A stretch of DNA of 32,793 nucleotides from Bacteroidales bacterium (GCA_003556325.1 PWRF01000045.1:1-32793); one strand, 5' to 3'; shown: positions 20,529 to 32,793, counted from the stretch's first letter. A program made the numbers and translations. The notes: generated by a model from the letters alone, not told the origin.

Positions 20529-21758
20529 TTACCTGGATTTTTCGAGCAGTTTTTCCCCGATCTTTTTTCCGTAATCATAGCAAAGGTTGTACTCATCCTC
20601 GTGCGGGGTGAATTTCACAAACACTCCCTCGCCCTGTACATCGAGTTTAAGATTGGCAAGTGTGGTGTTGATTAGTTTTCCGGCTTCACCGCTCCAGCCG
20701 TATGATCCAAACGAGCCTGCAATCTTTTTGTTGTCACGGATGGGGCTGATCACTGCAAACAGGCGATACACAGGCAGCAGTATGTTCTGGTTGATGGTGG
20801 GACATCCCACAATAACGGCGCTGCTTTTGGCCACACGTTCATCCACATCTCCAATAGGCATGTTTTCAATGTCGGCAACTTCAACCTGAAAATCTCCCGC
20901 GCTTCTGATGCCATCGCGGATCGCCCCGGCCATCATCCCGGTATTATGATATGCCGACACATAAGGAATAAATACATGATCCTGCTGCGGGGTTTGCAGG
21001 GCTTCCTTTGCGTACTGCCCGCTGAGGTCAACCCACTTTTTCCAGTCTTTCATCAGCAGGGGGCCGTGGCCAGTCAGTACGGCATCGATTTCCAGCGGAC
21101 GGATCTTGTCGATCGCCTTCAGCATGAATTTGCTGAAGGGTTTCAGGATCACATCAAAATAGTATTTGAACGCATCGCTGAAGTCTCCGACCTTATCGTC
21201 ATACATGGCAGGGTGTGCGTAGTGGCACCCGAATGAGTCGCAGGTGAACAGGAGTTTGTCTTCCTCCAGATAGGTATACATGCTGTCGGGCCAGTGCAGG
21301 TTGGGTGCTGAAATAAAACGCAGGGTTTTATTGCCCAGGTCGATAGTGTCACCGTCTTTAACGATCCGGTGCTTAAACTCTTTGCCCAGGAAATCCTTGA
21401 GATACTGGATCGCCAGCCTGCTGCCCACCACTGTGGCATCAGGTGCAAGCTCCAGCACATTGGCCAGGTTTCCGCTGTGGTCCGGTTCCGTATGATTAAG
21501 GATCACGTATTCGATCTCCGTGGGATCTCCTGCCTTGTAAAGCTTTTCTTTGTAAACATCCCAGAACTTTTCCTTGGATGTTTCAATTAGTGCCTTCTTA
21601 TCGGCATTTATAAAGTAAGAATTGTAGGTGGTACCATATTCGGTTGTCATCACCACATCAAAGGTTACAATGTCATAATCGATCACACCGACCCACTTCA
21701 CATCTTTGTTTATGTCGAGCACCTCGGTATCGGGTCTCTTCAAATCCTGTACTTTCAT
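20529..21758 (-). CDS. Flavodiiron protein (A-type flavoprotein, FprA-like; O2/NO reductase family)
   Basis: MBL-like di-iron motif [23 protein letters not shown], then a flavodoxin domain ([15 protein letters not shown]). Confidence 0.92.
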
Positions 21759-21856: not shown

Positions 21857-23107
21857 TCACGCCATGTTCCTGTCCATATACTGAATCAGCTTACCCATTG
21901 AGGTAACATAGCTGCCATACTCATTATCGTACCAGCCAAATATTTTCGCGTGGGTGACAGGCAGGTTCAGGTCTTTTTCCACCTTTATTCCCAGTGAGGC
22001 CATGGCTGACCCGGGGAGATTGATAAAGCCTGTTCGTGTGTGGCATTCATGACCTTCGATGACCACAGCTGCGGGGAACCCCATCATATCGACCGATACG
22101 TTTTGCTTTTCACTGAAGACCAGCAAGTCTTTTTGCGGGCCTTTGGCTGCTTCTTTATAAACGTTGTCAATAAAGCTTTTGTTGATCACGGGTTCTCCTT
22201 TTTCGTTCATCCTGGAGTTGAAAGTCACGTTCAGGATGATCAGCGAAACCGTGTTGGTTGGGATCCGCACGGAGTCGGCCATAAAGCCGATCTCTTCGAT
22301 CTGCGGCATGATTTTTTCCAGGGCCTTTGCGGCTCCTGTGGTAGACAGGATAATGTTATTGAATACCGACCGGTTTTTACGCAGGTCGGAGGCACCTGCT
22401 TTAGGTACGGCGTCGAGGACGTTTTGGGAGTTGGTTGCTGCGTGCACCGTTGACATGGATGCGGTAAGGATATGCGATGTTTCTTCCTGCCCGAGCAGCG
22501 GCAGGATCATATGGGCGAGACCCGTAGTGGTGCAGCTTGCCGCCGAAACCAGCCGGTGTTGTCCGCTGTCGTAATTCAGGTGGTTGATGCCATATACCAT
22601 CATGGCACTGTCGTCGGGCATCTTTTTGGCCTTATCTTTGATTTTGAAGGGAGCACTTAGCAGCACCGTTTCGGCTCCTGCCTCGAGATGGCCCCTCAGG
22701 CTGCCTCCCTCTTTATTCGCAGGCACGGTAGGGTCGTTAAACCTGCCCGTGCAATCCACCACCATTCGCACTCCATGGTCTTTCCATCCGATCCCGGCAG
22801 GATTTCTGTGCTGCCGGAGCACCTGTACCAGGAAGCCGTCGTAGTCAAGCAAGCCCTTTTCGTGATCGATAACCTTAAAATGCTTTTCGGGCTGGCCAAA
22901 TCCATAAATGAAGCGCGAGAGATTTCCGTAGGTGGAGTCATGCTCCATAACCTGAATGATATGTTCCAGGCTTTTCCCTACCTCGCGGCCCACATTGATG
23001 ACCACACCATCAAAGTGGCGGTAGATGAGCTGGTACCAGAGGGTTAGTTTTCCGATTCGGCCTAAGCCATTGATTCCGAGAAGATTTTTATGTTTAAGGT
23101 TTTCCAT
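21857..23107 (-). CDS. Divergent glyceraldehyde-3-phosphate dehydrogenase-like protein
   Basis: INGLGRIGKLTL, SAASCTTTGLAH (catalytic Cys), STVHAATNSQ, STTGAAKALEKIMPQ, WYDNEYGSY. Confidence 0.9.
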   Translation of the reverse strand: MENLKHKNLLGINGLGRIGKLTLWYQLIYRHFDGVVINVGREVGKSLEHIIQVMEHDSTYGNLSRFIYGFGQPEKHFKVIDHEKGLLDYDGFLVQVLRQHRNPAGIGWKDHGVRMVVDCTGRFNDPTVPANKEGGSLRGHLEAGAETVLLSAPFKIKDKAKKMPDDSAMMVYGINHLNYDSGQHRLVSAASCTTTGLAHMILPLLGQEETSHILTASMSTVHAATNSQNVLDAVPKAGASDLRKNRSVFNNIILSTTGAAKALEKIMPQIEEIGFMADSVRIPTNTVSLIILNVTFNSRMNEKGEPVINKSFIDNVYKEAAKGPQKDLLVFSEKQNVSVDMMGFPAAVVIEGHECHTRTGFINLPGSAMASLGIKVEKDLNLPVTHAKIFGWYDNEYGSYVTSMGKLIQYMDRNMA

Positions 23108-23142: not shown

Positions 23143-26100
23143 TTATCTAACGATCTCAGTATAATCAGTTTGATAATGACCTTTAAAGATATTTCCGGAA
23201 AAACCGTCAATGGATATCTGATCTCCGGGCACCAGGACATCCCCGTTGATGGTGCATTTTTTTTCTTTCTCGTTGACTTGCAGCGTGCGGCAGTTCAGCA
23301 CACACACCTTACCCAGGCGGGCTGCTGTAACTGCAGCATGGGAGGTGGTACCGCCCCTTGCTGCCACCAGGCCATCGCATTCAAAGATAATTGGAATATC
23401 GTCCGGGACGGTATCCGGACGCATTAAAATGCAGGGGTCATCGGGATGCTTTTTTCTGAGCGCAAGAATATCGTCCATATCGATGGCAATCCGGCCGTTA
23501 AGGGCACCTCCGCCACCCCCGATACCTCTCCCGAGAAGTTTCATTTCGGAGACGGAATCCACGAAAACCTGCAGGCGTTCTGTTTTATGAGTGTCCTGGT
23601 CACGGATCTGCAAAATATATAGTTCATCGGGGTCTGACGACTCAAAAGTAAACTCGATCTCCTGGTGGTTGAAACCCTTTTCTTCCACCAGTTCGGTGGC
23701 TATCTCCTTCAGCTTGTTATAGATATCCGGCAGCAATTCTTCCATCGACTGTTGATTTTCGCGACCGGTAAGGTTTTTCTGGTAGACAGATACTGGCAGG
23801 GCATGAACAAGTCCGGCAACGATATCTTCACCCTGGCTGCAGAGGGTGAAGTCCCCGTTGAGGTAAATCCCCGGTTTCTGGATCAGCGGGTTTTGGGTAA
23901 ACACAACACCGGTTCCTGAAAATTCATCGATATTGCCAAGTACCATTTGCTGGATGACGACTGCCGTACCCCACTGGTCGGCGATCTGAAGGTGGTTGCG
24001 ATACACATTGGCCCTTTCCGATCCCCAGGAGTCAAAAACGCTCATAATGGCCTGCTTGAGTTGTTTCCAGGGGTCTTCCTCAAAGAAAACTTTTTCATTT
24101 TCCAGGATCTTTTTGTAAGCGAACGCCATTTCACGCATCTGTTCAGGGGTAAACTGAATTTTCTGTTCAACCTGGTATTTTTCCTTAAAGCGGATCATCA
24201 CCTGGTCAAAGACATCCCGGTTTATGCCGTATGTCATGCCCCAGCTCTGCAGCAGGCGCCTGTAGCAGTCCCAGGATGTCCATCCGAAGTTGGGTTGCCT
24301 GCTGAGTGCTTCCACAATGTCGTCGTTGAGCCCCACATTAAGAAAGGTGTTCATCGCTCCGGGCATGGAAATGGCAGTGCCTGACCGCACCGAAAGCAAG
24401 AGCGGGCTGTCGGGAGAACCAAACTGACGACCGCATTTCTCTTCCAGGCGGCTCAGATGATGTCTTATCAGCGCTTCGACCTCATTTTCCAGGGAAGGGT
24501 TGCTGTTGATGGCCTTACGGCGACGAAAGACCTCAGTGGTCAGAACAAAGCCGGGGGGCACGGGGAAGTTTTCCATATACAGCATTTTCTGAAAGTAGGC
24601 CTTGGAACCCAGGAATATCTGGTTGTCAATTTTCGGCGTCTTTTCAAACAGGGGGCTGATCACCAGGCCGGGGTCATACGACATGATATGCCTGATAATA
24701 TCGGGCGGGAAGTTGTCGACCATATCCTGCAGCGCATGGATCATCCGTGAGATATAGTTGTCGAGGGGCTGGATCAGGAAGGAGGTGTACAGGATCTCCC
24801 GGTAAAACGCCTCCGACCTCTTGACCAGAAGTTCCTTCCTTTCGGTGTCATCCAGCTGGTTCTCCGGATCGAATATCTGGGGTATGATCATCCGCAGGGG
24901 CTGATCATAGAAGCCAAAGAAGTAGGTGTTGGTGATGTCCTTTACGTTTTTGGCCATAAACTGGAAGAGGTTGATAAACTGGCCCAGCGAAAAGCTTTCA
25001 CTTGTCAGGCCGTATCTCAGCATTTGCAGGTTGGCATCCAGTCCCTGGCTTGTCACACCGTCCAGCTCAAGCCCCCTCCGGAACATGGCCATGATGTCGT
25101 ACGAGGCCTTTAGCGACCGGGCAGTGATATATTCCGTATGCACAGCATATACCTTCTCTTCCATAAGCGTTGCTGCCAAACGCTCGAGGCGGAAGATCAG
25201 ACCCAGGGCCTCAAACTTGTCTTCCCGGTACTGTCCGTACATGGAGGGAATGCCAAACGCGATATGTCTTTTGTGGTATATGCTCTCCCAGCCTTCGCTG
25301 TGTTCCGGACTGAAGATCACCTGGTTGAGCTGCTCCATGAAGTCAAACAGTACCGCCAGGCCCTGATCCGTATCTCCCTGCTCCAGGTGCCGTTTCAGTT
25401 GGGTTACCTGCTCTTCTGAAAAAAAGTGATAACGGCTGAGAACAGCGATTATGTCGGCTGCATCAAAGGAATACTTCTCACGCAGAAGCACAAAAAGTTT
25501 AAAGAGCAGGCGCAGTCGTTTCAGGTCATCGTCATTGTCGTGATCAACCTCCCCGAGTACCTCTTCAAACCCCGCGATAGTAAGCTTCAGCAGATCTTTT
25601 GGCCCCCGGTGGGTGGCTTTTGAAATTTTCTGCAGGAGTTCGTGCACACTTGTAAACCATCGACTGGCAGTGTCAATGTTTGCCAATACTTCGTCAGGAA
25701 GCATTTCTTTTAAATGGCCGGCGTCTCCGTCGTGCCAGAAATAAAAAATCCGTTTGCAGAGGTCAATATGGCTGTTGTTGCCTTCAATGTGCACCTGCTT
25801 TCTGAGAAAGTGAATCAGGATGTCCTCCCGGCCTGATATTTCATCCATAACGGTGGTTACATCGCGCAATTCGCCTTCAGCTCCTATCTCATTAAAATAT
25901 ACAGGAAAGATCCGGGTGAGCTGTTTTATCTGCTTGTACAGTGGTGAGATGTTGCTGTTCAGCAGCTTGCTGATGTCGCGTTGAAACAGGTCGGTATCGA
26001 AGATGAAGATGCCCCCGAGCCGAAGGTTCACAATAAGTGCGGAGAGAAGCTTCCTGAACGTATAGGGCGCGTGCATGATGAGTTCCAGCCACACCCTGAT

Positions 26101-27255
26101 ATTTTTCAGGTGGTTAGGGTCAACGCTCAGCTGCCAGTTTTCCTGTATAAACACCTTGCCGGGGCCGGCGAAACCCAGTTCAATAAGTTTGTTTTCAAAG
26201 AGGCTTATGATCTTCCTGTCTTCCACTTCAATGACCTCTTTCCCCAGAGTGAGAATACAGTCGAGCACTGTAGACATATACCTTCCCTTCAGCTCATTAA
26301 AAAGCTCAAAAATGTTATCAAGAAAGCCTGACAAAGCTTCTTTGTCAAGTTCAGCACGGATGTTCCGCAATATTTTATTGAGCTCCCAGAGCAACTGGGT
26401 TCGCTGCGTCTCCATTCCCGGGAGGTGCAGCAGGAAAAGGATATAATAGAAGCGCTCAATGCTTTTTTCGAACTGGTCAATAAAAGATTTGAAATGGATA
26501 GCTGTTTCCTGATAAAAAAGCACATCCTCACATAAGCTATCCCAGGTTCCGGCCTTGCTGAGCAGGTCTTGTTGCCTGGAAAAAAATCCTTCACCTATGT
26601 CGCTGATTTTTCCGGAGTAATCTTTGGCAAAGAGGTGTTTGCGTTTTGCGAACCATTCTTCGGTCGGCGTGCTTTCTTTCCAGAATTTTATGGAGTGCGA
26701 CAATACCTCTTTGACCAAAGAAACAAGCTTCTCCGAATAATCATCCTGTCCGGCTACTGCATTAAGGTGTTTTTTCAGGAGGTCAGAGTATTTGATAAGC
26801 AGCTCCTGCCGGCTCTTAAGAAGCATATTTAAGACTTCAAAGAGATGATTAACCAGGCTGGGGAAATAGGATTTTCCGGTGAGGTCGTCAGATCCGAAAT
26901 ACTCAAGGTAGGTCTTGAGCAGCTGGGCAGCTTCTTCATCTCCGATGGGCTGTTTCAGCAGGCCGGCAGCAATATCCAGAAAAAACAGGATGGCTTTTTC
27001 CGGGTCGTCTGATTGTTCGTACAGCCATCGGTCGCCGAGAAGGATCTTCCGGTATTCTTCCGCGATGATCTTATGGTTGGCATAGGGGTGGTTAAGTTCT
27101 TCGAAGAAACTTCTTGTCCGTTTATGTATACCCCAGTGTTTTTCCAATAGTTTGAGGATCTCCTGGTGGGGTTTAGGTATCCTGATCTCTGCGACGCGTG
27201 TCTCTTCCAGGTTTACCTGAAGGGCTCCCGAAGTAAATTTTTTATTTTGCACCAT
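23143..27255 (-). CDS. PEP/pyruvate-dikinase-like protein: ~870-aa N-terminal region plus ATP-grasp plus swivelling phospho-His domain, no PEP-binding TIM barrel
   Basis: LLLSVRSGTAISMPGAMNTFLNVGLND and WDCYRRLLQSWG (PPDK ATP-grasp); DGLVAARGGTTSHAAVTAARLGKVCV (phospho-His). ATG at 27255 (MVQNKKF) avoids overlap with hydE. Confidence 0.88.
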   Translation of the reverse strand: MVQNKKFTSGALQVNLEETRVAEIRIPKPHQEILKLLEKHWGIHKRTRSFFEELNHPYANHKIIAEEYRKILLGDRWLYEQSDDPEKAILFFLDIAAGLLKQPIGDEEAAQLLKTYLEYFGSDDLTGKSYFPSLVNHLFEVLNMLLKSRQELLIKYSDLLKKHLNAVAGQDDYSEKLVSLVKEVLSHSIKFWKESTPTEEWFAKRKHLFAKDYSGKISDIGEGFFSRQQDLLSKAGTWDSLCEDVLFYQETAIHFKSFIDQFEKSIERFYYILFLLHLPGMETQRTQLLWELNKILRNIRAELDKEALSGFLDNIFELFNELKGRYMSTVLDCILTLGKEVIEVEDRKIISLFENKLIELGFAGPGKVFIQENWQLSVDPNHLKNIRVWLELIMHAPYTFRKLLSALIVNLRLGGIFIFDTDLFQRDISKLLNSNISPLYKQIKQLTRIFPVYFNEIGAEGELRDVTTVMDEISGREDILIHFLRKQVHIEGNNSHIDLCKRIFYFWHDGDAGHLKEMLPDEVLANIDTASRWFTSVHELLQKISKATHRGPKDLLKLTIAGFEEVLGEVDHDNDDDLKRLRLLFKLFVLLREKYSFDAADIIAVLSRYHFFSEEQVTQLKRHLEQGDTDQGLAVLFDFMEQLNQVIFSPEHSEGWESIYHKRHIAFGIPSMYGQYREDKFEALGLIFRLERLAATLMEEKVYAVHTEYITARSLKASYDIMAMFRRGLELDGVTSQGLDANLQMLRYGLTSESFSLGQFINLFQFMAKNVKDITNTYFFGFYDQPLRMIIPQIFDPENQLDDTERKELLVKRSEAFYREILYTSFLIQPLDNYISRMIHALQDMVDNFPPDIIRHIMSYDPGLVISPLFEKTPKIDNQIFLGSKAYFQKMLYMENFPVPPGFVLTTEVFRRRKAINSNPSLENEVEALIRHHLSRLEEKCGRQFGSPDSPLLLSVRSGTAISMPGAMNTFLNVGLNDDIVEALSRQPNFGWTSWDCYRRLLQSWGMTYGINRDVFDQVMIRFKEKYQVEQKIQFTPEQMREMAFAYKKILENEKVFFEEDPWKQLKQAIMSVFDSWGSERANVYRNHLQIADQWGTAVVIQQMVLGNIDEFSGTGVVFTQNPLIQKPGIYLNGDFTLCSQGEDIVAGLVHALPVSVYQKNLTGRENQQSMEELLPDIYNKLKEIATELVEEKGFNHQEIEFTFESSDPDELYILQIRDQDTHKTERLQVFVDSVSEMKLLGRGIGGGGGALNGRIAIDMDDILALRKKHPDDPCILMRPDTVPDDIPIIFECDGLVAARGGTTSHAAVTAARLGKVCVLNCRTLQVNEKEKKCTINGDVLVPGDQISIDGFSGNIFKGHYQTDYTEIVR

Positions 27256-27299: not shown

Positions 27300-28388
27300 C
27301 TAAGATTTTTTTCGCCTGGAAAAATGTTTTGAGTCGCCCCACTCGCCGTACCCTATCTCACCGCCGGCCATGTGTATCCGGGCTTCAAGGCACCGTTTGC
27401 ACTCCTCGGCATCTTCGTCAGTACAGGGTTTATCCTCATACAAAAGGTAATCTTCGCGGTAGCGTGAGGGCGTTAGGTTTGGCATGATGATGTTGGCCCC
27501 GACCTTTATGGATTTCTCCCTGCCCATAGGGTCGATGGCTTGCATTGCCGTTGTGGCGGCTATGTTGATGTCTTTCATCATGATCCGGAGGATGGCAACC
27601 ATTTTAAGGCTCAGATAAAACCGGTCCATCCTGGGCATGAGCTGGTCGCGGTATTGATACATCGGGGTATCTTCATGCTCGATATAAGGCCCCATTCCCA
27701 CCATGTCGATATCATGCTCCTTCATAAACAGCAGGTCGTCGGCAAGGTCTTCAGTGGTTTGAAAGGGCAGGCCGATCATCACGCCTGTTCCTACCTGGTA
27801 TCCTACCTTGCGCAGCAGGTATAACGACTGCAATCGTGCCTGGTAGTCGTGGGTTTTGTTTTGGGGATGGTAACGGTGATACAACTCCGGGTTGGACACC
27901 TCGATACGCAGCAGATAGCGATGGGCACCGGCCTCAAACCACCGGCGGTAGGTTTCTTCGCTTTGTTCTCCAAGCGACAGGGTAATACCCAGCTCTCCCT
28001 GGCTCATCTTTTTGATCTCCCTGACAAGTCGCTCAATGCGCCGCACGTAGTCTTTTCCGCTGCGTTCGCCGGCCTGCAGCACGACGCTGCCAAACTTGTT
28101 TTCCCAGGCATAGCGGGCCGCTTCCAGAACCTCCTCCTCGGTTACTTCATAGCGGTGTGCCTTCTTATTACCGGCACGAATACCGCAATAAAGGCAATTT
28201 TTTCCGCAGAGGTTGGAGTACTCCACCAGGCCCCGGTAAAATACTTTTTTTCCAACGTACTCCTCCTTCACCTTTGCAGCGCGCTCAAAAAGAAGCTTCC
28301 GTTCCGTTTCATCAGTATGTAACAAACGGACGATATCTTTTTTTGAAAGATTTTGCTTCTGCAGTATGTTTTGAATAACCTGAGTCAT
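27300..28388 (-). CDS. hydE: [FeFe] hydrogenase H-cluster maturase, radical SAM HydE
   Basis: VEYSNLCGKNCLYCGIRAGN (CxxxCxxC), VLQAGERSGKDYV, GLPFQTTEDLADDLLFM, NIIMPNLTPSRYREDYLLYEDKPC. ATG at 28388. Confidence 0.93.
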   Translation of the reverse strand: MTQVIQNILQKQNLSKKDIVRLLHTDETERKLLFERAAKVKEEYVGKKVFYRGLVEYSNLCGKNCLYCGIRAGNKKAHRYEVTEEEVLEAARYAWENKFGSVVLQAGERSGKDYVRRIERLVREIKKMSQGELGITLSLGEQSEETYRRWFEAGAHRYLLRIEVSNPELYHRYHPQNKTHDYQARLQSLYLLRKVGYQVGTGVMIGLPFQTTEDLADDLLFMKEHDIDMVGMGPYIEHEDTPMYQYRDQLMPRMDRFYLSLKMVAILRIMMKDINIAATTAMQAIDPMGREKSIKVGANIIMPNLTPSRYREDYLLYEDKPCTDEDAEECKRCLEARIHMAGGEIGYGEWGDSKHFSRRKKS

Positions 28389-28414
28389 GGCCCAATACAA
28401 TTTACTGAAAAATA

Positions 28415-28469: not shown

Positions 28470-29699
28470 TTATAAATAATCCTCATCCGTTTTTTCCAGT
28501 TTGACAAAAGGTGCCACAGCCCTGTGGTATATTCCATGCATAAATGCAATTGCCATGCCATAGTTGGTCACGGGAACGCCGGCATCTACTGCCTCTTTCA
28601 GGCGGTTTTTGATTTGTTTTTGGGTAATCATGCATCCCCCGCACTGTACCACCAGGGCATATTCAGCAATTGGCCTGGGCAGGTCTGAAAGTCCGGCCAC
28701 CACTTCATACTCCAGCTTTTTCCCGGTATACTGGTTCATCCATCTTGGGATCTTGACCCTCCCTATGTCGTCGCAAGCCACATGATGCGTGCATGACTCA
28801 AGGAGGAGCACGCGGTCACCGTCATTGAGGCCGTCGATCTTCGGTGTGCCGGCAAGGTAGTTCTCAAAATCCCCTTTATGCCTGGCGAGCATGATGCTGA
28901 AACTGGTAAGCGGGATATCAGCGGGGATAGAAGCATCGGCCTTGAGGAATACCTGCGAGTCAGTGACCACCAGGCTGGGTTTGGGTTGCAGTTTTTTCAT
29001 CAGGGCGTCTATCTCTCTTTCCTTGACTACAACCGCAATGCAGTCGTTATCGATGATGTCGCGAATGGCCTGAACCTGGGGGAGGATAAGCCGGCCTTCC
29101 GGGGCTTCGGTATCGATAGGTGTGATCAGGACGACCAGGTCGCCATAGCTAAGAAGGTCGCCAAGCAGGGAACGCGAACGGTATGCTGTCTCCGGCATGG
29201 CTTTTCGCAGTGCAGCGATGGCGTCTTCCAGGTTATCCGGGTTTACCGCACAGAAAGGCAACACAATGGTTTGATACGTTTCTTCCAGCTGCTTTTGGGT
29301 TGCGGGTTCAAGAGCCTGCTTATCAGACTTATTATGAAAGATCACAAAAGGTACTTCCTGCCGCTTGAAAGCCTCCACCAGCCGCTTTTCTGCCTCATCA
29401 AACAGGTTATCCGTGATCACAAGAACGGCAAGATCAACTGTTTTCAAGGCTTTCAGTGAGCGCCCGACACGCTTCTCCCCCAGCTCACCAATATCATCGA
29501 TACCCGCGGTGTCCACGAGGATTGCAGGTCCGATGCCGGGTATTTCCATGGACTTGCGCACCGGATCGGTAGTGGTGCCGGGTACGTCGGATACAATGGC
29601 GATGTCTTGCTGTGCCAGGGCATTGATAAGGGAGCTTTTGCCGTTGTTCCGTCGTCCGAATATGCCGATATGGGGTTTGGATTCTCTGCCTTTGGCCAT
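28470..29699 (-). CDS. hydF: [FeFe] hydrogenase H-cluster maturation GTPase HydF
   Basis: GRRNNGKSSLINAL, VSDVPGTTTDPVRK, LVDTAGIDD; C-terminal CTHH...CGGCM cluster-binding motif. Confidence 0.94.
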   Translation of the reverse strand: MAKGRESKPHIGIFGRRNNGKSSLINALAQQDIAIVSDVPGTTTDPVRKSMEIPGIGPAILVDTAGIDDIGELGEKRVGRSLKALKTVDLAVLVITDNLFDEAEKRLVEAFKRQEVPFVIFHNKSDKQALEPATQKQLEETYQTIVLPFCAVNPDNLEDAIAALRKAMPETAYRSRSLLGDLLSYGDLVVLITPIDTEAPEGRLILPQVQAIRDIIDNDCIAVVVKEREIDALMKKLQPKPSLVVTDSQVFLKADASIPADIPLTSFSIMLARHKGDFENYLAGTPKIDGLNDGDRVLLLESCTHHVACDDIGRVKIPRWMNQYTGKKLEYEVVAGLSDLPRPIAEYALVVQCGGCMITQKQIKNRLKEAVDAGVPVTNYGMAIAFMHGIYHRAVAPFVKLEKTDEDYL

Positions 29700-31747: not shown

Positions 31748-32793
31748 TTACCTGATAATCTCGAAACGCTCAATCGCGATTCCGGACTCAAAATACAATC
31801 TCAGGAAATACATTCCGTTTTCGAGAGACTGGACTGGCAATTGCACTTTCTTGCTATCTGTGGTTTTATCAATCACCATCTGGCCAGCAATGTTGTATAC
31901 GCTTATCTGCTTAAGCGTTTCATCGCTACTTATATTCAGGTATTGACTGGCCGGGTTGGGATATACAACAACAGCCGGCAACACAGGCTCTGTAATAGCT
32001 GTCACATTCTCGAAGTGGGCAACAAGATGTAAGTCCTCAGAAGGCATTGTGAATGTGAACACAGCCTCCTGTGAAACTTCATCGCCATTTTCATCTGCCC
32101 ACTTTTCGAATTCGTAGTCTTCGTTGGCTTCGGCCATCACGGTCACTTCTTCGCCAAAGACATACAGTCCTTCTCCGGATACAGTTCCTCCGGTCTCCGG
32201 TTCGGCACTAAGGCTCAGGGTAAAGCTCAGCTGCTCAAAGTTTGCAATAAGGGTAACATCTTCTGCCGGCATGGTGAATGAATATTCTTCCGTATCAGCA
32301 ACCACTTCATCATCCAGATTTGTCCAGTTGATAAACTCATACCCTTCATTGGCGTTGGCTGTTACAGTAACTTCATCTCCCATCTGGTAAGTACCCTCTC
32401 CTGTAACATCGCCTCCTTCTTCAGGCTCAGCGAGAAGGCTGAGGGTATAATCTGCCAGCTCGAAATTGGCGGTTAGTGTGAGATCTTCTGCAGGCATGGT
32501 GATACTCTCAGATGGAGATGCCGACACCACATCGCCGTCTTCATCTGTCCAGCTTACAAAGTCGTACCCTTCCGCGGGTGTCGCATTGATCAGAACCATG
32601 TCGCCCATATTGTAATTGCCTGCTCCCGTAACTTCACCGCTACCTTCTGGCTCTACCAGCAGAGACAGGGTATACTCCGCCATTTCAAAGTTGGCAGTAA
32701 GCGAAAGGTCTTGTGCAGGCATATCAAACGTATGTTCTGCATTGCCGGCAAACTCGTTGCCGTCATCATCAGTCCAGTTAACAAAGACATATC
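31748..32793 (-). CDS. Partial (5' end off window) secreted protein with InlB B-repeat-like domains and C-terminal T9SS type A sorting domain
   Basis: Frame stays open to the window edge (YVFVNWTDDDGNEFAGNAEHTFDMPAQD...). C-terminus VVVYPNPASQYLNISSDETLKQISVYNIAGQMV...GMYFLRLYFESGIAIERFEIIR. Confidence 0.9.
   Translation of the reverse strand, partial: YVFVNWTDDDGNEFAGNAEHTFDMPAQDLSLTANFEMAEYTLSLLVEPEGSGEVTGAGNYNMGDMVLINATPAEGYDFVSWTDEDGDVVSASPSESITMPAEDLTLTANFELADYTLSLLAEPEEGGDVTGEGTYQMGDEVTVTANANEGYEFINWTNLDDEVVADTEEYSFTMPAEDVTLIANFEQLSFTLSLSAEPETGGTVSGEGLYVFGEEVTVMAEANEDYEFEKWADENGDEVSQEAVFTFTMPSEDLHLVAHFENVTAITEPVLPAVVVYPNPASQYLNISSDETLKQISVYNIAGQMVIDKTTDSKKVQLPVQSLENGMYFLRLYFESGIAIERFEIIR
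32000..32674 (-). repeat. Three full 75-aa (225-bp) protein repeats, plus a partial fourth upstream
   Basis: Units begin YTLSLLVEPE, YTLSLLAEPE, FTLSLSAEPE; each counts to exactly 75 residues. Confidence 0.9.

Follow-up and report, generated by a model that had tools for sequence, protein, structure and literature searches.

A predicted PPDK-like phosphotransferase of Bacteroidales with a large helical N-terminal domain, no PEP/pyruvate barrel and a repeated linkage to GAPDH genes

Introduction

Glucan water dikinase carries C-terminal His and ATP-binding modules behind a large acceptor-binding N-terminus, a layout shared with the protein described here; it differs from the latter in that its His domain stands before the nucleotide domain and its N-terminal part holds carbohydrate-binding modules. 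Modules of the pyruvate, phosphate dikinase (PPDK) type have been re-used for rifampin, for aromatic compounds and for regulation. In rifampin phosphotransferase (5HV1) an ATP-grasp and a swivel His domain serve a non-PEP acceptor; the barrel is replaced by a partly alpha/beta acceptor domain placed between the ATP-grasp and the His domain. No structural relatives of this domain are known, and the phosphate is bound by its Arg, Gln, Lys and Glu side chains (PMC4844700). The two-component dikinase HpeHI (9GOJ), of the RPH type, consists of two subunits, likewise combines ATP-grasp and swivel His, and uses aromatic small molecules other than PEP as acceptors (PMC12167813). VadK (Rv1127c) of M. 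tuberculosis, a protein of ~50 kDa, unites the PPDK nucleotide-binding and His domains without the barrel and without a large N-terminal domain; it phosphorylates itself on His422 and binds enzymes of the methylcitrate cycle whose genes lie nearby (PMC13400623).

Here we describe a PPDK-like protein encoded in a 32,793-nucleotide stretch of DNA from a Bacteroidales bacterium (GCA_003556325.1 PWRF01000045.1:1-32793; the whole stretch is called the window). No description of its architecture was found in the open-access literature, Pfam, NCBIfam or PDB. The 2235-bp gene DVU0246 of Desulfovibrio, part of a nitrate-resistance cluster (PMC4001038), encodes a shorter and different protein.

Results

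The coordinates of the gene, its domains and its neighbours are given in Table 1. An alternative GTG start at 27342 would run the reading frame into the hydE stop, and homologues begin near the position of the ATG; the ATG is therefore preferred. The frame is unbroken and has been kept intact in >30 other genomes, so it is neither a chance ORF nor an assembly fusion. The first-pass annotation had called the protein "giant", which is apt only by comparison with PPDK (1370 aa against about 870-930 aa).

Table 1. Features of the PPDK-like phosphotransferase locus (positions counted from the first letter of the window)
Feature	Residues	Positions	Strand	Basis or remark
PPDK-like phosphotransferase ORF	1370 aa	23143..27255	(-)	ATG start; intact homologues in other genomes
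All-helical N-terminal domain	1-880	24616..27255	(-)	AlphaFold2; family unrecognised
Most conserved N-terminal core, candidate acceptor site	381-500	25756..26115	(-)	conservation
Second conserved N-terminal block	654-690	25186..25296	(-)	KRH.A.GIPSMYG.Y.E.kFeA
ATP-grasp, PPDK-type	~876-1237	23545..24630	(-)	Pfam, NCBIfam, phmmer, alignment, structure superposition
Phosphohistidine swivel domain	1239-1365	23161..23541	(-)	Pfam, phmmer, structure superposition
Predicted phospho-His codon	His1306 (= PPDK His455)	23338..23340	(-)	alignment, conservation
GAPDH, ~415-aa subfamily	416 aa	21857..23107	(-)	35 bp downstream of the phosphotransferase
Flavodiiron (FprA-like) protein		20529..21758	(-)	downstream of GAPDH; ODP + flavodoxin domains
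HydE		27300..28400	(-)	upstream neighbour; TIGR03956 above cut-off
HydF		28470..29699	(-)	upstream neighbour; TIGR03918 above cut-off

The C-terminal part is of the PPDK type. Pfam places PPDK_N at residues 924-1156 (E=3.7e-29) and the PEP-utilizers mobile domain at residues 1272-1354 (E=1.8e-15), and phmmer aligns residues 882-1237 and 1239-1365 to PPDK 1KBL (E=6e-73), in agreement with the PPDK-type ATP-grasp and swivelling domain read from the sequence at first pass. The phospho-His codon predicted then is that of His1306, which sits within the motif GGTTSHAAVTAA. The protein stops 64 residues past this histidine, and Pfam gives no barrel family match; it is therefore without a C-terminal PEP/pyruvate TIM barrel, as had been stated. 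Compared with PPDK of C. symbiosum (1KBL; TIGR01828), the ATP-grasp and phosphohistidine domains are homologous (~30% identity), follow in the same order and keep the TSHAA motif as well as the equivalents of the catalytic residues. In contrast to PPDK the barrel is missing, an 870-aa helical N-terminus has been added, and ATP-grasp and swivel domain are joined by a linker ~33 residues shorter (query 1237/1239 versus chain 355/389), which may limit the swing of the swivel domain.

Among the NCBIfam models, PPDK (357 bits) scores far above PEP synthase (57-73) and rifampin phosphotransferase NF041857 (31 of 999). The equivalog score of TIGR01828 is nevertheless not reached (356.6 bits versus a cut-off of 843.45). 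Because the equivalog score is missed and the barrel is missing, the protein is not a PPDK, and the label "pyruvate, phosphate dikinase" is a wrong annotation for these genes. A separate PPDK of full-length size is present in the same genome (a 931-aa frame on contig C111), so the protein is an additional one. Nor is it an RPH, since the domain order differs: helical domain, ATP-grasp and His domain follow each other, and the RPH-type acceptor domain and order are absent. The ATP-grasp of rifampin phosphotransferase is PEPS-like, whereas that of our protein is PPDK-like, and the structural matches to rifampin phosphotransferase (E about 2e-6) and HpeHI (E 8e-5) are weak.

The first-pass annotation had proposed a check of the ATP-grasp catalytic residues, and these turned out to be present throughout. 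In the alignment to 1KBL, K885, R957, E1201, Q1216, R1218 and H1306 correspond to K22, R92, E323, Q335, R337 and H455 of PPDK (C. symbiosum numbering), residues with catalytic roles in PPDK. All six are invariant in 33 full-length homologues, as are R999, R1000, D1135, E1143 and D1144, although the most distant homologue is only ~48% identical over residues 175-1370. Judging from this conservation, the protein very probably autophosphorylates His1306 from ATP.

Residues 175-1370 were modelled with AlphaFold2 (pLDDT 85.6, pTM 0.66). Superposed on 1KBL, the ATP-grasp and His domains of the model give an rmsd of 3.2 A across 541 alignment columns, but they fit 2R82 and 1VBG poorly (13-14 A). 1KBL is a structure of the NBD-facing state; in the group that includes 2R82 and 1VBG, the central domain is found close to the pyruvate domain (PMC5371819). 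The model thus depicts a state suited to histidine phosphorylation; this state may partly reflect the training of the predictor on known PPDK structures.

The N-terminal ~870 aa, previously described as helical-looking and unrecognised, are indeed all-helical in the AlphaFold2 model of residues 1-880 (>40 helices, pLDDT 83.6, pTM 0.73; confidence is low at residues 657-674), which contains neither a beta domain nor a beta/alpha barrel. Neither of the two findings that would have spoken against the first-pass reading was obtained: the N-terminal half does not form a TIM barrel, and a described family of the same architecture did not turn up in the sources searched. The earlier suggestion of a non-PEP acceptor is likewise supported as likely. 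No confident family was obtained in Pfam, NCBIfam or the PDB profile search. The sole Pfam match with E<0.001 is a 30-residue FIMAH fragment (23.0 bits in the full protein, 24.9 in the N-terminus alone, cut-off 24.8); it was found in just 2/12 members and is treated as chance. Foldseek against PDB gave no confident match (TM by query length <=0.18 among the matches listed) and a loose likeness to ARM/HEAT-type and generic helical-repeat proteins.

The domain is present, at 870 aa, in every full-length homologue, and it is conserved very unevenly. Identity between families reaches 66-78% in residues 381-500, as compared to 55-64% in the ATP-grasp and 52-65% in the swivel domain; it is 46-56% in residues 641-870 and 25-46% in residues 1-380 and 501-640. 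That an N-terminal core is better conserved than the ATP-grasp came as a surprise. R448, E456, E460, R464, D471, E472, R476, D478, H482, R485, K486, H489, E491, N493 and N494 are invariant within it in the 33 homologues. Such a pattern is what would be expected of a ligand, active or acceptor site, and the acceptor probably binds here.

The genomic neighbourhood provides the second line of evidence. A GAPDH gene directly adjoins the phosphotransferase gene in 28/35 evaluable loci and 12/14 families, mostly co-directional and with gaps of 6-260 bp; of the remaining loci, four have a GAPDH gene ~2-7 kb away, and in three the fetched stretch contains no GAPDH gene. These neighbours fall into three clades of the GAPDH tree that are ~30-40% alike: (i) a form of ~415 aa, downstream; (ii) a divergent short form, upstream and in the same orientation; and (iii) short GAPDHs of the ordinary kind, divergently oriented. 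In four loci (G525, G585, G624, G701) the gene is flanked by members of clades (ii) and (i). Members of the ~415-aa clade are at least 59% identical, and the 416-aa protein of the window retains the catalytic-type SCTT and STVH motifs. This subfamily occurs in 24/35 genomes with the phosphotransferase versus 0/32 without it, a pattern that holds within one genus too (Fisher test p ~1e-9, uncorrected for kinship and with 24/36 versus 0/31 entered, a table one genome off that leaves the conclusion unchanged). Positive genomes usually have at least two GAPDH genes, most negative ones a single one. In the phosphotransferase tree the lineages without a neighbouring ~415-aa GAPDH largely cluster together, consistent with one loss of this GAPDH and ordinary GAPDH genes near the phosphotransferase thereafter. 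From this linkage we infer that the physiological role of the protein likely lies at the GAPDH node.

Full-length homologues were found in 26/295 genomes sampled across the order Bacteroidales and, counting fragmentary copies, in 14/47 genomes of the family to which the window belongs. In the class sample (247 genomes) and the phylum sample (396), both made up largely of other orders, the window's own genome alone matched; no homologue was found in the sampled genomes of other orders of Bacteroidota. Within the phylum sampled, the protein is restricted to one order, and its named relatives are Bacteroidales MAGs. A link to defence systems was rejected, as PADLOC gave no match. The first-pass annotation contained neither the GAPDH link, the restriction to one order, the conservation of the N-terminal core nor the VadK precedent.

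Discussion

The protein is best placed among the PPDK-derived phosphotransferases, with an architecture described in none of the sources searched, and would work like a dikinase half-reaction. On balance we favour a PPDK-derived histidine phosphotransferase that acts at the GAPDH step and in which the helical domain replaces the PEP barrel. The ATP-grasp would phosphorylate His1306 with the beta-phosphate of ATP, giving AMP and PPi (or Pi), a half-reaction that homology leads us to expect to be reversible; the swivel domain would then swing and pass the phosphate on to an acceptor, whose binding would fall to the all-helical N-terminal domain in place of the PEP/pyruvate barrel. As in rifampin phosphotransferase, this acceptor is likely not PEP. 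The family would add another branch to the re-used PPDK-type modules, distinguished by a large acceptor domain whose fold is unrecognised and by its strong and recurrent association with GAPDH, a central enzyme of glycolysis. This association suggests that sugar breakdown includes a phosphate transfer, or a point of control, that has not been described before. It also raises a testable question, namely whether PPi/AMP-linked phosphotransfer or histidine-kinase control operates at the GAPDH step of anaerobic Bacteroidales.

As to the acceptor, we weakly favour a molecule of the 3-phosphoglycerate/1,3-bisphosphoglycerate type over GAPDH itself, because three GAPDH clades as divergent as those found next to the gene are more easily explained by a shared metabolite than by a shared protein interface. 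The helical-repeat look of the modelled N-terminus would suit protein binding and leans the other way. In its most specific form, the metabolite reading makes the protein a 3-phosphoglycerate dikinase (3-phosphoglycerate + ATP + Pi <-> 1,3-bisphosphoglycerate + AMP + PPi), which we consider unlikely. The 1,3-bisphosphoglycerate would be passed to, or from, the neighbouring GAPDH, and the enzyme would be to phosphoglycerate kinase (PGK) as PPDK is to pyruvate kinase: a PPi-linked bypass driving gluconeogenesis or, reversed, saving PPi energy in glycolysis. A general replacement of PGK is rejected, since PGK is retained in 22/24 positive genomes checked; the two misses, in the window's genome (86% complete) and in G613 (94%), fit incompleteness. 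Retention excludes simple replacement, yet a parallel PPi-linked route is still compatible with it. Pyruvate kinase and PPDK, too, coexist in many organisms. A second divergent PGK was rejected as a partner: it occurs in 42/295 genomes, just 7 of which carry the phosphotransferase.

VadK is the closest functional precedent. Both proteins pair the PPDK nucleotide-binding and His domains and lack the barrel, but ours, with its 870-aa N-terminal domain, is not a short protein of these two domains. The VadK gene, too, is linked to genes of metabolic enzymes, namely those on which VadK acts, although these belong to the methylcitrate cycle and not to the GAPDH step (PMC13400623). Our protein could be a regulatory histidine kinase or scaffold that autophosphorylates, binds or phosphorylates GAPDH isozymes via a helical solenoid, responds to the ATP/AMP/PPi state and tunes flux between glycolysis and gluconeogenesis. 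The VadK precedent, the ARM/HEAT-type likeness and the surplus of GAPDH genes in positive genomes all speak for such a regulator; the best-conserved part, however, is a compact charged core that resembles a ligand or active site more than a surface, and the gene has GAPDH neighbours from three distant clades, even in genomes that lack the ~415-aa form. We regard this possibility as less probable than the favoured one. That a catalytically dead relative has been retained as a structural protein might be read from the absent barrel and the shortened linker, but the checked ATP-grasp and phospho-His residues, all invariant in 33 sequences down to ~48% identity, speak against it, and this reading is very improbable. 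An ordinary PPDK or PEP synthase with its PEP-binding domain relocated to the N-terminus would explain the PPDK-like catalytic half; given an all-helical N-terminus without a beta/alpha barrel, the lack of any barrel family in Pfam and a separate full-length-size PPDK in the same genome, it is very improbable.

The local gene order suggests yet another role, in [FeFe]-hydrogenase maturation or redox balance. In the window, hydE is followed by the phosphotransferase gene after 44 bp and this by the GAPDH gene after 35 bp, with no terminator-like site found in either gap; the tight order is repeated in most positive members of the family, and HydF is present in 33/35 positive genomes. It is also common without the phosphotransferase (21/32 negative genomes), and the order hydF-hydE-phosphotransferase-GAPDH-flavodiiron is confined to the window's family, beyond which GAPDH adjoins the gene and hydE/hydF do not. 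To our knowledge, H-cluster assembly requires no kinase of this kind. A hydrogenase-linked role is thus rejected as a general rule and improbable altogether. Gene clusters downstream of the phosphotransferase in some families, whose gene sizes had suggested hydrogenase subunits, seem from their sequences to encode LepA, a sigma factor and other proteins.

GAPDH and PGK types

The ~415-aa GAPDH subfamily retains the catalytic Cys and His motifs and carries several insertions; the window member scores 297 bits, under the 367-bit equivalog cut-off for type I GAPDH. In a comparison of 35 genomes with and 32 without the gene of the PPDK-like phosphotransferase (T), this subfamily was seen only where T is also present. 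Most T-positive genomes without it have a separate GAPDH type of ~490-520 aa, which was also found in one T-negative genome (G456). In several families the gene immediately upstream of T belongs to the divergent short GAPDH clade (loci L062, L066, L075, L082, L085 and L086), and in most members of this clade a VVHINDKM-like motif replaces VVGINDLT. A divergent second PGK with a VRVDHNVVKKG motif occurs in 42 of the 295 genomes sampled across the order, and in G701 the sole PGK found is of this type.

Other proteins

The ORF at locus L093 encodes a further PPDK-related protein of genome G000, the match to the start of PPDK_N falling at the contig edge. Its upstream part gave no Pfam match. By eye, this part has a response-regulator-like appearance.

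Coordinates of the features discussed
Feature	Location	Strand	Remark
GAPDH, ~415-aa subfamily	window 21857-23107	(-)	below type I GAPDH equivalog cut-off
GAPDH, divergent short clade	L062 6189-7202		directly upstream of T
GAPDH, ~490-520 aa	L117 (G705), L118 (G615), L119 (G488)		T-positive genomes without ~415-aa GAPDH
Divergent second PGK, ~436 aa	G525:C12:380679-381986 (L129); L127 4680-5990		VRVDHNVVKKG motif
Open-ended ORF, 732 aa	L093 6885-9080 (G000:C140)		end of ORF matches PPDK_N start
Protein of divergent InlB B-type repeats	window 31748-32722	(-)	Por secretion sorting tail
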